Shown here in pieces: positions 3 through 10,946 of a stretch of 64,000 nt of DNA. How positions within the stretch are numbered: the first letter of the stretch is position 1; each line of letters starts with the position of its first letter. Made by a program: the position numbers and the translations under genes. The notes under the pieces were generated by a model, which was not told where the DNA came from, did no database searches, and saw only the letters and a program-made list of their open reading frames with translations. The stretch comes from an uncultured Ferrovum sp. (GTDB lineage Bacteria; Pseudomonadota; Gammaproteobacteria; Burkholderiales; Ferrovaceae): positions 1 to 64,000 of the forward strand of contig CAITLJ010000013.1 in NCBI GenBank assembly GCA_903893215.1. Reading direction: 5' to 3'.

Positions 3-2757
<2,755 letters not shown>

Positions 2758-2767
2758 GGAGAACATC

Positions 2768-3472
2768 ATGCCCAGTACCCTCACGTATCAGGAACGTCGC
2801 GGCCAACTGCTCGATTACTTCGATCGCACCGCTGTCGACGCATGGAAACGCCTGACCTCGGATGTGCCGGTCAGCGGTGTGCGCGCCACGGTGCGCGAAG
2901 GCCGTCTGCGCATGCGCAATACCCTGCTGTCCTGGCTGCCGGTCGACCTGCAGGGTGCGCGCATCCTTGATGCCGGCTGTGGCACCTGCGTGATGGCCGC
3001 TGAACTCGCCGACCGGGGTGCGGACGTGCTGGCCATCGACCTGTCGCCCAATCTCGTGCGACTGGGTGAGGAGCGCTTCGGAGCGCGACGCAGTCGCGGC
3101 CGGATGCGGTTCGCAGTCGGTGATTTTGCGGATCCTGCACTCGGCCAGTTCGATTACGTGATCGCGATGGATTCACTGATCCATTACAGCGCCCAGGACA
3201 CGGCACGCACGGTGGCTGAACTGGGCCACCGTACCCGTCAGACGATCTGCTTCACTTACACCCCAAGCAACCTGCTGCTGACCAGCATGTTGGCGGTAGG
3301 GCGACTGTTCCCTCGAAGTGACCGCTCACCCGCGGTGGTGCCGGTCGATCAGCGTCACCTGCATCGCCTGCTCACCGCCCCGGCGCTCGGTGGCCATCTG
3401 ATGCCGGCGCGCAGTGCCCGTGTTTCGCATTATTTCTACAAGTCGCAGGCCCTGGAGGTTGGCTGCGCATGA
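2768..3472 (+). CDS. bchM: Mg-protoporphyrin IX O-methyltransferase
   Basis: BchM uses S-adenosylmethionine to methylate the ring C propionate of Mg-protoporphyrin IX, giving the ester that AcsF cyclises. The protein is 234 aa, usual for the family, with SAM motif I at ILDAGCGTC (near residue 65) followed by an acidic residue region AIDLSP. The ATG at 2768 has AGGAG just upstream, 10 bp after the bchL stop. Its stop overlaps the lhaA start (ATGA), so the two are probably translationally coupled. The neighbours bchH and bchL make the assignment secure. Confidence 0.95.
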   Translation: MPSTLTYQERRGQLLDYFDRTAVDAWKRLTSDVPVSGVRATVREGRLRMRNTLLSWLPVDLQGARILDAGCGTCVMAAELADRGADVLAIDLSPNLVRLGEERFGARRSRGRMRFAVGDFADPALGQFDYVIAMDSLIHYSAQDTARTVAELGHRTRQTICFTYTPSNLLLTSMLAVGRLFPRSDRSPAVVPVDQRHLHRLLTAPALGGHLMPARSARVSHYFYKSQALEVGCA

Positions 3473-6952: not shown

Positions 6953-8017
6953 ATGGATGACCTGTTCGATTTCGCACCCCCCCTTGATGCCACCGAAACT
7001 GCCCGTCAGGACAGCCTGCTGGCACCGCGCTTTTACACCACCGATTTCGCTGCCATGGACCGCATCGACGTAAGCTCCGTGCGCAAGGACTGGGACGCGC
7101 TGATGGGTGAGTTCCGTGCCGACATCAACAAGGGCCACTTCGAACGTGCCGGCAGTTTCAAGGAGGCGGTGGACCTGCTGCAGGAACCGCTACGCTCCGA
7201 ATTTCTGGATTTCCTGATCAGTTCTGTCACGGCCGAATATTCCGGCTGCGTGCTCTACAACGAGATTGCCAAGAATGTCAGTAACCCGGACATCAAGGAA
7301 CTGATGCGCAGCATGGCGCGCGATGAAGCCCGTCATGCCAGCTTCATCAATCACTCGCTGCGCGACTTTGACCTCGCGGTGGATCTTGGCCGACTGAAGC
7401 GCGAAAAAAAGCAGACCTACTTCGCACCCAAGTTCATCTTCTACGCCACCTACCTGTCAGAAAAGATCGGCTACGCCCGGTACATCTCGATTTTCCGTCA
7501 GCTGGAGGCCCACCCGGAGTTTCGCTTCCACCCGATCTTCCTGTGGTTCGAACGCTGGTGCAACGATGAATTCCGGCACGGTGAAGCCTTCGCCTTGCTG
7601 ATGCGTGCCAACCCGGATCTGCTGGTCGGGCGCAACCGCCTGTGGATCCGTTTCTTCCTGGTGGCGGTCTACGCCACCATGTATGTGCGTGACCAGCGCC
7701 GGGTGGTGTTACACGACGCCTTCGGGCTCGATCCGCAACAATACGATTTCCGTGTGTTCGATATCACGTCCGCGATCAGCAGGCAGGTCTTCCCGTTCAC
7801 CCTCGATACCAATCATCCGGCATTTCGCGCGCTGCTGGGCCGGTTGCGCCAGGTGATGGATGCAAACGAGGCGGCCAGGAAACGCGGTGGTCTCGGGGGG
7901 CTGATCGGCAAGGTCGTCACCAGCGTGCAGGCCGTCGGCCTGTTCGTGCGTCTTTACCTGCACCCGGTGGTGCCAAATGAACTGCCAGCGGATATCCGTC
8001 TGGCGCCGAGCTGGTAA
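6953..8017 (+). CDS. acsF: Mg-protoporphyrin IX monomethyl ester oxidative (aerobic) cyclase
   Basis: AcsF is the diiron monooxygenase that forms the isocyclic ring E using O2. The 354-aa protein has the expected carboxylate/histidine iron ligands: E95 in TAEYSG, E125-x-x-H128 in DEARHASF and E206-x-x-H209 in [10 protein letters not shown] 6953 follows a weak GGAG. It lies in the puh operon between puhC and puhE, as in several betaproteobacterial clusters. No anaerobic BchE cyclase is in the window, so at least this route needs oxygen. Confidence 0.97.
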
Positions 8018-8029
8018 GGCAGCGCGGCA

Positions 8030-9814
8030 ATGCTGACCCTACTTCAGCCGGTCGGGTTCGCTCTGGTGGCCTGGTGGTTCAGCACTGGGCTGATCATCTT
8101 CCTTGATGGTCTGCCTGTGCGCACCTTCCGCTACACCCTCGCGGGTGCCACCGCGCTGGCCATCGGTGGCTTGTGGGGACTGCAGGAAGTGGCCCAGGTG
8201 ACCACCAGCGGCGGGGCCTACTGCGGCTTCGCCTGTGGCCTGCTGGTTTGGAGCTGGCTGGAGGTCAGCTTCTACACCGGCCTCGTCACCGGTCCACGCA
8301 AGACACGCTGTGCCGAGGACTGCTCGGGTTGGACCCATCTGGGCCACGCTGTGGCCGCAAGCCTGTGGCACGAACTGGCCATCCTGGGGTTGGCCGCGAT
8401 CGTCTGGAAACTCAGCTGGGGTCAGCCCAATGCGGTCGGTGCGTGGACTTTTCTCACCTTGTGGTGGATGCACCAGAGTGCCAAGCTGAATGTGTTTCTT
8501 GGGGTGCGCAACCTGAACGCCCATTTCCTGCCCGACCATCTGGCATTCCTGCGCAGCTTCCTGCGTGAGGCGCCGATCAATCTGCTGTTTCCCGTATCGA
8601 TCACCGTCTCTACCGTGATCTGTGCAGCCATGGTGGGCGAAGCCCGTGCCTCCGCCGCTGGCAGCTTCATGCAGCTGGCCTGGGTGTTCGTCTGCACCCT
8701 GATGGTGCTGGCGATCATCGAGCACTGGGTGCTGGTGCTGCCGCTACCGTTTGCCCGACTGTGGGACTGGAGTCTGACTGGACGTCCGGTCAATGCGCCG
8801 CTGACCGTCGATGTCGTGGCAGGCTTCCTCGGTGCCGGCAAGACCACCGTGATGCGCCGGCTGCTCGAAACGGTCGATCCGTCGCAGCGCACCCTGGTGC
8901 TGGCCAATGATTTTTCCAGTCTGGGCATCGATGGTGCGCTTTTGTCCGGTCGGGGAGCCGAGGTGGTCGAACTGGCCAATGGCTGCATCTGCTGTACCCT
9001 GCGCGACGATCTGGCCAGCCAGCTCACCCGGCTTGCGGCCCGCCACGCCGTGCAGCGCGTGCTGGTCGAGCCGTCCGGTGTGGCCGACCTCGCCGTGTTG
9101 TTGAATGCCTTGCGCAGCCCGGCGCTGGCCCGGGTGGTAGGGCGCCTGAGCGTGCTGACTGTGATCGATGCCGGCGCCTTCCTGGCCGACTATGCGCGCC
9201 GGCCTACCTGGTTCGAAGCCCAGGTGCGCGTCTCGCAGCGCATCCTGGTGAACAAGGTGGATCTGGTGCAGGAGGGCTCACTGGAGGTGATCCGCCACAC
9301 CTTGCAGGCCATCCAGCCCGGGGTGCGCATGGTACTGGGGCGGCACGGCCTGCCCGACGACGGTGCGGCTGTCGCGGATTTGCTTGCGGTGGTGTCCGCC
9401 GTTGCGCCGGCAAGCGTCGCCGCAAGACCGGCTGTTGCGGCGGCAGTGTCCGGCCCGGCCTATCGCGAAGTGCGGCAGCCATCGTCTGCTGACGCTCTCG
9501 AACTGGCCACGCTGGGTCTTGAGAGCTGGAGTAGCCCACTGACCGGCAGCTGCGACGCCTTGCAGTTGCGCATGCTGCTCAATGGCCTTGGAAACGGGGA
9601 ATTCGGCCGGCTTGAGCGCGTGAAAGGCATCGCCCGCGCCGGGGCCGGCTGGGTGCGCTTCGATCTGGCGGGCGGCAATGCCGCGATCGCCGCGCATGCA
9701 CCCCAACAGGAAGAAAAACCGCGGGTGCTGGTGATTGGCCAGCACATCGATCGTTCCGGATTATTGCGTGCCTTTCAGGCGTGCATCCTCCCAGGAGTAA
9801 TGCAACATGGATGA
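8030..9814 (+). CDS. PuhE-type photosynthetic complex assembly protein fused to a CobW/G3E-family GTPase domain
   Basis: This is a two-domain protein of 594 aa. Residues 1 to about 250 are a polytopic membrane domain of the PuhE type (DUF3623, putative photosynthetic complex assembly protein 2), with about seven hydrophobic segments and a conserved RKTRCAEDC loop. Residues about 258-585 are a COG0523 (CobW, HypB/UreG-like) domain with Walker A GFLGAGKTT (265-273), NDFSSLGID, the metal-binding GCICC motif (C319, C321, C322), EPSG and NKVD (408-411). The frame is uninterrupted and no start codon with a good ribosome site is evident at the junction. COG0523 proteins are GTP-dependent metal chaperones (Zn, Co, Fe); a membrane-tethered chaperone serving cyclase or chelatase is my inference. 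The 3' end overlaps bchI by 8 nt. Normal PuhE is only about 250-270 aa. Confidence 0.92.
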   Translation: MLTLLQPVGFALVAWWFSTGLIIFLDGLPVRTFRYTLAGATALAIGGLWGLQEVAQVTTSGGAYCGFACGLLVWSWLEVSFYTGLVTGPRKTRCAEDCSGWTHLGHAVAASLWHELAILGLAAIVWKLSWGQPNAVGAWTFLTLWWMHQSAKLNVFLGVRNLNAHFLPDHLAFLRSFLREAPINLLFPVSITVSTVICAAMVGEARASAAGSFMQLAWVFVCTLMVLAIIEHWVLVLPLPFARLWDWSLTGRPVNAPLTVDVVAGFLGAGKTTVMRRLLETVDPSQRTLVLANDFSSLGIDGALLSGRGAEVVELANGCICCTLRDDLASQLTRLAARHAVQRVLVEPSGVADLAVLLNALRSPALARVVGRLSVLTVIDAGAFLADYARRPTWFEAQVRVSQRILVNKVDLVQEGSLEVIRHTLQAIQPGVRMVLGRHGLPDDGAAVADLLAVVSAVAPASVAARPAVAAAVSGPAYREVRQPSSADALELATLGLESWSSPLTGSCDALQLRMLLNGLGNGEFGRLERVKGIARAGAGWVRFDLAGGNAAIAAHAPQQEEKPRVLVIGQHIDRSGLLRAFQACILPGVMQHG

Positions 9815-10946
9815 TTCCTTGGCCACTGCATCGGCCCTTGCGGGTAATTTTGCTGCTGACCTGCACCCGTTAACCACGCCCGCCGGCAATCGGCCCGCCG
9901 CGGCGCGCACGCCCGCGCGCCGCAGCGTCTTTCCGTTCACTGCCCTCGTCGGCCAGGACGGCATGCGCGACGCGCTGCTGCTGGCGGTGGTGGATGCCGG
10001 CCTGGGCGGCGTGTTGGTGACCGGTGACCGCGGCACTGGCAAGTCCACGGCGGTGCGCGCATTGGCGGCCCTGCTGCCGGACATGCCGGTCGTGCAGGGC
10101 TGTGCCTATCATTGCCATCCGCTGCAACCTTCGCCGGATTGCCCGCACTGCAGTGCGCTGCAGGCGCGCGGGGTGGCTCTGCTGGCCGGGGCCCGCCCCG
10201 TGCCGGTAGTCGATCTGCCGTTGGGTGCCAGCGAGGATCGCGTGGTCGGTGCACTGGACCTCGAGCGCGCCCTGGTGCACGGCGAGAAGGCGTTTGAGCC
10301 GGGCCTGCTGGCGCGTGCCCATCGCGGTTTTCTGTATATCGACGAAATCAACCTGCTTGAAGATCACCTGGTCGATGTCTTGCTGGATGCAGCGTCCTCC
10401 GGCGAAAACGTGGTCGAGCGCGATGGCCTGAGTGTGCGTCATGCCGCCCGCTTTGTGCTGGTCGGCAGTGGTAACCCGGAAGAAGGCGAGTTGCGTCCCC
10501 AGCTGCTCGATCGCTTCGGGTTGGCGGTCGATGTACGCACGCCGACCGACTTAGCCGTGCGCGTCGAGGTGGTGCGCCGGCGTGCCGCCTTCGAGCAGGA
10601 TCCAGCGGCCTTTGTGGCGACTTATGAGCAGGCAGAACAGGCCCTGCGTGATCGCTTGGCCATGGCACAGCAGCGTCTGCAGCAGGTGGATGTGCCGGAC
10701 GCCATGGTGGAAGCGGCCGCCCGGCTGTGCATCGCGCTTGGTACCGATGGGCTGCGGGGCGAGCTTACCCTGGTCCGGGCAGCGCGCGCTGCCGCTGCCC
10801 TCGATGGCAGCGCTGCCGTGACGCTGGAGCACCTGCGCGACTGGGCGATTCCGGCGCTGCGTCATCGCCTGCGGCGCAATCCGCTGGATGAGGGCGGGTC
10901 GGACGTACGCATCGAACGCGCACTGACCGAAGTGTTTGGGGCGTGA
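9807..10946 (+). CDS. bchI: Magnesium chelatase ATPase subunit I
   Basis: BchI is the AAA+ ATPase that, as a ring with BchD, powers Mg2+ insertion by BchH. The 379-aa product has Walker A GDRGTGKST (73-81), Walker B FLYIDE (175-180) and sensor GSGNPEEGELRPQLLDRFG. Between strands it carries four cysteines, C99, C103, C112 and C115, with interspersed histidines, a possible metal site found in some but not all BchI proteins. The ATG at 9807 overlaps the 3' end of the puhE-cobW gene by 8 nt, so coupled translation is likely. Confidence 0.97.
   Translation: MDDSLATASALAGNFAADLHPLTTPAGNRPAAARTPARRSVFPFTALVGQDGMRDALLLAVVDAGLGGVLVTGDRGTGKSTAVRALAALLPDMPVVQGCAYHCHPLQPSPDCPHCSALQARGVALLAGARPVPVVDLPLGASEDRVVGALDLERALVHGEKAFEPGLLARAHRGFLYIDEINLLEDHLVDVLLDAASSGENVVERDGLSVRHAARFVLVGSGNPEEGELRPQLLDRFGLAVDVRTPTDLAVRVEVVRRRAAFEQDPAAFVATYEQAEQALRDRLAMAQQRLQQVDVPDAMVEAAARLCIALGTDGLRGELTLVRAARAAAALDGSAAVTLEHLRDWAIPALRHRLRRNPLDEGGSDVRIERALTEVFGA

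Follow-up and report, generated by a model that had tools for sequence, protein, structure and literature searches.

A PuhE membrane domain fused to a COG0523 GTPase in the photosynthesis gene cluster of an uncultured Ferrovum bacterium and in several other bacterial families

The Fusion Gene and its Surroundings

The stretch of DNA analyzed here, called the window in the following, comprises positions 1 to 64,000 of contig CAITLJ010000013.1 from an uncultured Ferrovum sp. (assembly GCA_903893215.1) and contains a photosynthesis gene cluster, in which puhA, puhB, puhC and acsF lie upstream and bchI downstream of a single open frame that links a membrane domain of the PuhE type to a GTPase of the COG0523 family (Table 1). 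Further genes of the cluster are bchM, bchC, bchY, bchZ and pufM. The bchM frame (2735-3472) can be read starting at a TTG located within the final part of the frame before it, which we take to be bchL; an ATG further in may be the true start of bchM.

Table 1. Coordinates of the fusion gene, its domains and motifs, and its two neighbors in the window.
Feature	Residues	Position	Strand	Basis or remark
acsF (oxidative cyclase), upstream neighbor		6953..8017	+	TIGR02029
PuhE-CobW fusion	594 aa	8030..9814	+	one open frame, stop codon counted in the coordinates
PuhE/DUF3623 membrane domain	1-252	8030..8785	+	PF12291, TIGR03055; AlphaFold: seven long helices
C94-x3-C98-x4-H103-x2-H106	94-106	8309..8347	+	putative metal site; loop before PuhE TM4 and start of TM4
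CobW/COG0523 G3E GTPase domain	261-434	8810..9331	+	PF02492; Foldseek best match YjiA
Walker A, GFLGAGKTT	265-273	8822..8848	+	sequence motif
CxCC metal motif, C319-I-C-C322, within GCICC 318-322	319-322	8984..8995	+	sequence motif
EPSG	347-350	9068..9079	+	motif typical of the fused clade
NKVD, guanine specificity	408-411	9251..9262	+	sequence motif
Linker, GTPase to CobW_C		9332..9520	+	His-rich in most relatives, not in the window
CobW_C domain	498-585	9521..9784	+	PF07683
bchI, downstream neighbor		9807..10946	+	TIGR02030; 8-base overlap with the end of the fusion frame

The initial annotation, made from the letters of the window, had described a single frame joining PuhE to a full COG0523 domain, and translation as well as the Pfam and TIGR03055 profiles bear this description out. 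The terminal stop is the only stop among the codons of the 594-residue frame. Its N-terminal part matches PF12291 (DUF3623) with an E value of 6.5e-96, above the Pfam cut-off, and the protein scores 281.3 bits against the PuhE profile TIGR03055, well over the equivalog cut-off of 164.05, so that it belongs to PuhE by profile as well as by its position after acsF in the cluster. The GTPase part matches PF02492 (cobW) with an E value of 2.9e-42, likewise above the Pfam cut-off, and the CobW_C domain (PF07683), for which 43 of 50 fused proteins gave a match, is found with an E value of 1.5e-6 and 28.4 bits versus a cut-off of 22. Walker A, GCICC, EPSG and NKVD, all four named in the initial annotation, are present at the residues given in Table 1, and the P-loop, CxCC and NKxD motifs (GFLGAGKTT, GCICC and NKVD) place the C-terminal half in COG0523. 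Within COG0523 the protein stays below the equivalog cut-offs of CobW (TIGR02475, 98.9 versus 332.1 bits) and of the zinc-related ZigA (NF038288, 96.7 versus 600 bits), and none of three fused proteins tested passes any COG0523 equivalog cut-off of NCBIfam.

Could the frame have arisen by an assembly slip, a frameshift or a mis-join near residue 250? A stop or frameshift at this place had been named as the observation that would speak against the fusion, and none was found. The frame is free of stops in three further metagenome-assembled genomes (MAGs) of the genus, with whole-protein identities of 79% (G001), 56% (G004) and 55% (G003), and it is open in isolates of other families. As the same frame recurs in MAGs of the genus and in named isolates, such an artifact is very unlikely and was rejected. 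The PuhE-CobW fusion is a genuine joining of two known families, found in several bacterial families.

Four of five genomes of the window's genus carry the full fusion; in the remaining one, G002, PuhE gave no match. The window genome contains one other match above the PF02492 cut-off, which from its sequence we take to be UreG, leaving the fusion as the sole COG0523 protein found in this genome. The fused domain of a further uncultured Ferrovum sp. MAG, CAIVHB01, is identical to that of G004. CAIVHB01 is the placeholder of a genus named Candidatus Solisferrum, phototrophic Ferrovaceae of high-latitude stratified lakes with a pH of 4.4-5.6 where data exist (PMC13390463); the word CobW is absent from the main text of that paper. 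In addition, a word search of the main text of the 2009 survey of COG0523 proteins retrieved neither photosynth nor chlorophyll, fusion or fused (PMC2770081). The initial annotation knew of no described case, and in the open-licence literature no description of a PuhE-CobW fusion was found; the fusion is thus apparently undescribed so far, although public genomes hold many such proteins.

Distribution of the Fusion

Family searches with PF12291, that is without a fused bait and with the window genome counted in each sample, found PuhE in 47 of 399 genomes of an order sample, 8 of 369 of a class sample and 31 of 398 of a phylum sample. The fusion occurs in one, one and three of these PuhE-bearing genomes, respectively, the window genome included each time, with the length of the frame as sole criterion wherever no locus was fetched, since frames of less than 500 residues are too short for both parts. 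The 47 PuhE genomes of the order sample comprise 45 with unfused PuhE, the window's own and one undecidable genome with PuhE in two pieces (G352). Other long frames (L033, L052, L057, L058, G803 and G896) are due to upstream read-through and were rejected as fusions.

The initial annotation had advised searching for other proteins with DUF3623 and CobW parts, and a scan with fused-protein PuhE domains as query, over one genome from each of 84,980 species, yielded them in number. It returned 101 relatives, the best 80 of which were analyzed; since a fused bait favors fused relatives, counts among these best 80 of 101 loci are not a prevalence. They consist of 47 fusions with CxCC, including three whose frame is cut or broken (L134, L161 and L163), five fusions without CxCC, two loci with CobW_C only, two remnants, 21 unfused and three unknown loci. 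L156, L165 and L181, in which the contig ends after PuhE, were excluded from the fused and unfused counts. Among these best 80 loci, CxCC fusions are found in Acidiphilium rubrum (L138), Acidocella, Lichenicoccus, Pararhizobium mangrovi, Lichenibacterium, Caenispirillum and Rhodovibrio, and also in 14 loci of Aurantimonadaceae, namely eight of Jiella (one with a broken frame), three of Aurantimonas and three of Fulvimarina. A restriction of the fusion to the window's genus was rejected on account of its presence in Acidiphilium, Jiella, Fulvimarina, Rhodovibrio and others. Plasmid and phage collections held no match that covers 80% of the fusion protein. Apart from the broken L161, no separate cobW gene was found in the best 80 of 101 loci, which span 3.6 to 20.8 kb each and were searched in open reading frames of at least 80 residues at an E value of 1e-8.

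A few loci deserve separate mention. Two fusions lie on contigs of 13.7 and 6.9 kb labelled Kouleothrix (Chloroflexota), from a MAG (L148) and from strain COM-B (L163), which may reflect contamination or transfer. A locus labelled Acidobacteria (L126) carries a photosynthesis cluster; in the CobW tree its fusion falls with Acetobacteraceae, and the locus is possibly mis-binned. One MAG (JABBOH01, isolate G5_19) has two different fusion genes on two contigs (L128 and L129) with a dS of about 0.7, pointing to a mixed bin or a duplication. Jiella pelagia, whose genome is complete, has a fusion frame (L161:9950-12149) that is broken at the CxCC region and continues in another frame, either through a sequencing error or as a fresh pseudogene.

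Linker, Putative Metal Ligands and Predicted Fold

The linker between the GTPase and CobW_C is His-rich, with 9-18 His within 30 residues, in 35 of 45 CxCC fusion proteins. The window protein and three Ferrovum relatives are not of this kind and have 2-3 His per 30 residues, the window protein no more than 2, and the linker of A. rubrum contains His and Cys. The Lichenibacterium protein (L179) lacks a His-rich linker but has a C-terminal tail with Cys and His (GCGCTDHAPGMSCDG).

Within the PuhE domain, C94, C98, H103 and H106 (CCHH in the following) are present in 48 of 48 CxCC fusions versus 18 of 67 unfused rows of the PuhE set, and also in all five CxCC-less fusions and in two of four rows with the GTPase lost. 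The baited scan (best 80 of 101), with its 21 unfused loci, accounts for 16 of these 18 unfused rows, and the 46 other unfused rows account for two. A comparison of CCHH with fusion on independent pairs, from which one unfused row without letters at CCHH (L108) was omitted, yielded only two pairs, both on starred branches. The link between CCHH and the fusion may therefore be due to common descent and is a clade-level association. H148 shows a similar distribution (48/48 CxCC fusions versus 10/67 unfused rows) and is not counted as evidence, since one of the two scan patterns contains it.

On which side of the membrane would these elements lie? In 50 fused proteins the mean number of Lys and Arg is 1.42, 2.40, 4.04 and 3.44 in PuhE loops 1, 3, 5 and the tail, and 0.20, 0.12 and 0.08 in loops 2, 4 and 6. 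By the positive-inside rule this distribution predicts a cytoplasmic position for both the CCHH loop and the GTPase. The AlphaFold model of PuhE alone contains seven long helices (pLDDT 88, pTM 0.86), in agreement with the number stated for DUF3623 (PMC12423673). DUF3623 was taken out of its former Pfam clan, the TmAT acyltransferase superfamily, according to the same source (PMC12423673), and a check against the ten-helix TmAT fold found the seven long helices of the PuhE model and HGSNAT with a Z of 4.9 among unrelated rows. A Foldseek search of PuhE against the PDB gave no match at E values up to 0.001, the best being 0.62, and the best Z of PuhE (VIA), 7.1 to a designed helical barrel, is of a size that is also reported for unrelated helical models. 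The best PDB fold match of the modelled C-terminal half (pLDDT 81, pTM 0.64) is YjiA.

Origin, Losses and Selection

A quick tree sets the fused GTPase domains apart from 61 stand-alone COG0523 rows as a single clade, with an SH-aLRT support of 99 and a stem of 0.94 changes per column; five rows labelled stand-alone turned out to be partial copies of fused genes. The EPSG motif occurs in 48 of 50 fused rows versus two of the 61 true stand-alone rows, 54 of which have ETTG or ESTG instead. No pattern emerged among the neighbors of L231-L233, the nearest stand-alone proteins with EPSG. In 240 alphaproteobacterial genomes, with up to eight candidates scored per genome, the two fused matches reached 477 and 401 bits, compared with 192 for the highest-scoring stand-alone protein.

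On the PuhE tree the fused and unfused states need seven changes if L156, L165 and L181 are counted as unfused, and presence of the GTPase needs five changes if the contig-end rows are left out. The branch that gathers the fused rows has a support of 86 in this quick tree and is not starred. Apparently, a single fusion event followed by losses or transfers would fit both counts.

Among the best 80 of 101 loci, five have lost CxCC and four the GTPase, and PuhE was kept in all of them, which suggests that a metal step would be dispensable in these lineages. In the two Roseospira fusions (L144 and L168) GHVCF replaces GCICC while Walker A and NKxD are kept; both proteins contain a run of nine His. 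Two Acetobacteraceae MAGs (L178 and L180) have no cysteine at the CxCC position. In a Pelagibius and a Geminicoccaceae MAG (L176 and L183) the GTPase is gone, and PuhE is followed by a shortened linker and CobW_C.

For the CobW half, which in this comparison takes in the variable linker, dN/dS ratios are 0.08-0.25 in eight CxCC pairs; the two pairs that lack CxCC have 0.25 and 0.35. For the PuhE half the ratios are 0.03-0.15 across all ten pairs, whereby several synonymous distances are near or above 1 and the ratios concerned are rough. Judged by these ratios, the fused GTPase with CxCC is under purifying selection.

Possible Function of the Fusion

We know of no transporter role and no biochemical activity of PuhE, and of no metallochaperone for bacteriochlorophyll (BChl) synthesis or type II reaction centers. 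The fusion protein contains by profile a full PuhE in the usual acsF-puhE order and, unlike the usual PuhE, adds a 340-residue GTPase and has CCHH, which is missing from most unfused PuhE. With CobW, YjiA and ZigA of COG0523 it shares Walker A, CxCC, NKxD and CobW_C, and most fused relatives have a His-rich linker, whereas the fused proteins differ from this family by forming their own clade, by EPSG in place of ETTG or ESTG and by the seven-helix membrane anchor. CobW of aerobic cobalamin synthesis is also a GTPase tied to tetrapyrrole metal chemistry, but the fusion is not in a cob operon and is membrane-bound. FeoB likewise combines a GTPase and a membrane domain in one metal-linked chain, but its GTPase family and its membrane part are different ones.

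The initial annotation had placed the fusion between acsF and bchI and had taken these neighbors as a pointer to metal allocation. The arrangement is as described in the window and is not that of most fused loci, and the argument from it does not hold. Among the best 80 of 101 loci, acsF immediately precedes puhE in 40 of 47 fused loci, some of the other seven being contig ends, and in 20 of 21 unfused loci; being equally upstream of unfused puhE, its position says nothing special about the fusion. In the same set bchI is directly downstream in five of 47 fused loci, and the commonest identified downstream gene encodes a 5-aminolevulinate synthase homolog (21/47 fused and 13/21 unfused loci; two members were checked by profile). 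AcsF as the sole client of the GTPase is unsupported. AcsF is present in four fused genomes with CxCC and absent from both Roseospira genomes, which also lost CxCC; acsF nevertheless adjoins puhE in three loci that lost CxCC (L150, L178 and L180) and in four MAGs, three of Pelagibius and one of Geminicoccaceae, that lost the GTPase.

The conservation of the fusion in several bacterial families suggests, by the Rosetta-stone argument, that PuhE and a metal GTPase are partners both physically and functionally. Considering the COG0523 motifs, selection, the His-rich linkers and CCHH together, metal handling tied to PuhE is the most economical reading. The dedicated metal step in BChl synthesis or reaction-center assembly proposed in the initial annotation thus keeps the membrane-tethered COG0523 domain, selection, the His-rich linkers of most relatives and CCHH on its side and loses the argument from the neighbors. 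We consider it about as likely as not that the fusion is a metallochaperone or metal-gated module which is tethered to the membrane and acts via PuhE on one of these two processes. For COG0523 proteins in general, Nha3, YeiR and ZigA are reported to require CxCC in order to handle metal, GTP hydrolysis is predicted to free the metal from CobW, and the variable C-terminal domain is thought to contact the client (PMC7689651). Rhodobacter capsulatus PuhE was described as a putative negative modulator of BChl production (Aklujkar et al., 2005). CobW relatives prefer zinc (PMC7895991), and this precedent within the family makes Zn(II) the most likely metal, followed by Fe(II).

How might such a protein work? 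A distinct COG0523 clade would have been fused to PuhE, apparently once, and both parts would have been inherited or transferred together since. In the GTP state CxCC would bind a transition metal ion, which in most relatives may be taken up via the His-rich linker, and upon GTP hydrolysis the ion would be released at the cytoplasmic face of the membrane, where the CCHH site of PuhE itself or a partner of PuhE could accept it. By this means the effect of PuhE on BChl production or reaction-center assembly would become dependent on metal and GTP. A more specific version is a GTP-driven relay in which CxCC would pass the transition metal to the acceptor C-x3-C-x4-H-x2-H in PuhE's cytoplasmic loop. 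The supply of metal would thereby license or brake BChl synthesis or load the reaction center. Having arisen a single time, this relay would have been carried into several families along with photosynthesis gene clusters and been dismantled stepwise elsewhere, with CxCC lost, the GTPase lost, or CobW_C alone left. This version is tentative and on balance doubtful.

Other functions have to be weighed against the metallochaperone acting through PuhE. The non-heme iron site of PufL/PufM lies on the cytoplasmic side, beneath PuhA, and the fusion could load this site or exclude zinc from it. Such a role would suit the encoding of puhE with puhA, puhB and puhC, the predicted cytoplasmic position of the GTPase and the fact that some COG0523 proteins serve iron enzymes, as Nha3 and the nitrile hydratase activator do (PMC7689651, PMC2770081). 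However, the same kind of reaction center occurs with unfused PuhE in 45 of the 47 PuhE genomes of the order sample, which indicates that the fusion is not generally needed for reaction-center iron and makes an inserter of this kind improbable. Alternatively, the fused domain might by analogy serve the Mg chelatase BchHID as CobW serves CobNST, or bar Zn and Co from it, a function we consider quite unlikely because Mg is abundant in cells, bchI directly follows the fusion in only the five of 47 fused loci (best 80 of 101) mentioned above and the fused domain scores far under the CobW equivalog cut-off. The overlap of bchI with the fusion gene in the window would be in line with it, as would the homology of CobNST, the anticipated client that CobW supplies, to the Mg chelatase BchHID (PMC7689651).

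A supply of Zn for the Zn-BChl of acidophiles is very unlikely, as the fusion is absent from the acidophilic Rhodopila globiformis (L160). It is present, moreover, in the 14 Aurantimonadaceae loci and in Rhodovibrio, and we know of no Zn-BChl organisms among Jiella, Aurantimonas, Fulvimarina and Rhodovibrio. The idea draws on the fusion in A. rubrum, a Zn-BChl organism (PMC12654162) whose linker bears both His and Cys, and in other bacteria of acid waters, Acidocella and the window's relatives from lakes of pH 4.4-5.6 (PMC13390463). Finally, the C-terminal half might deliver nothing and act as a metal or GTP sensor that gates the brake of PuhE on BChl synthesis. The CxCC-less fusions retain Walker A and NKxD under a weaker purifying selection (two pairs), and CobW_C alone was kept in two lineages (L176 and L183); their persistence suggests that parts of the protein are functional without metal transfer. 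Yet CxCC is kept in 47 of the 52 loci with a fused GTPase (best 80 of 101, with the frame of L161 broken there) and most fused proteins have a His-rich linker, so that a mere sensor appears unlikely.

A membrane-tethered metallochaperone acting through PuhE would add a metal-handling step to bacterial photosynthesis, in a lake bacterium as well as in a range of purple bacteria. Questions on PuhE and the metal GTPase can be addressed in cultured A. rubrum, Jiella, Aurantimonas, Fulvimarina and Caenispirillum, and the graded losses of CxCC and of the GTPase constitute natural mutants. L176 and L183 show the two parts of CobW separated in nature, and in L183 the shortened linker is His-rich.
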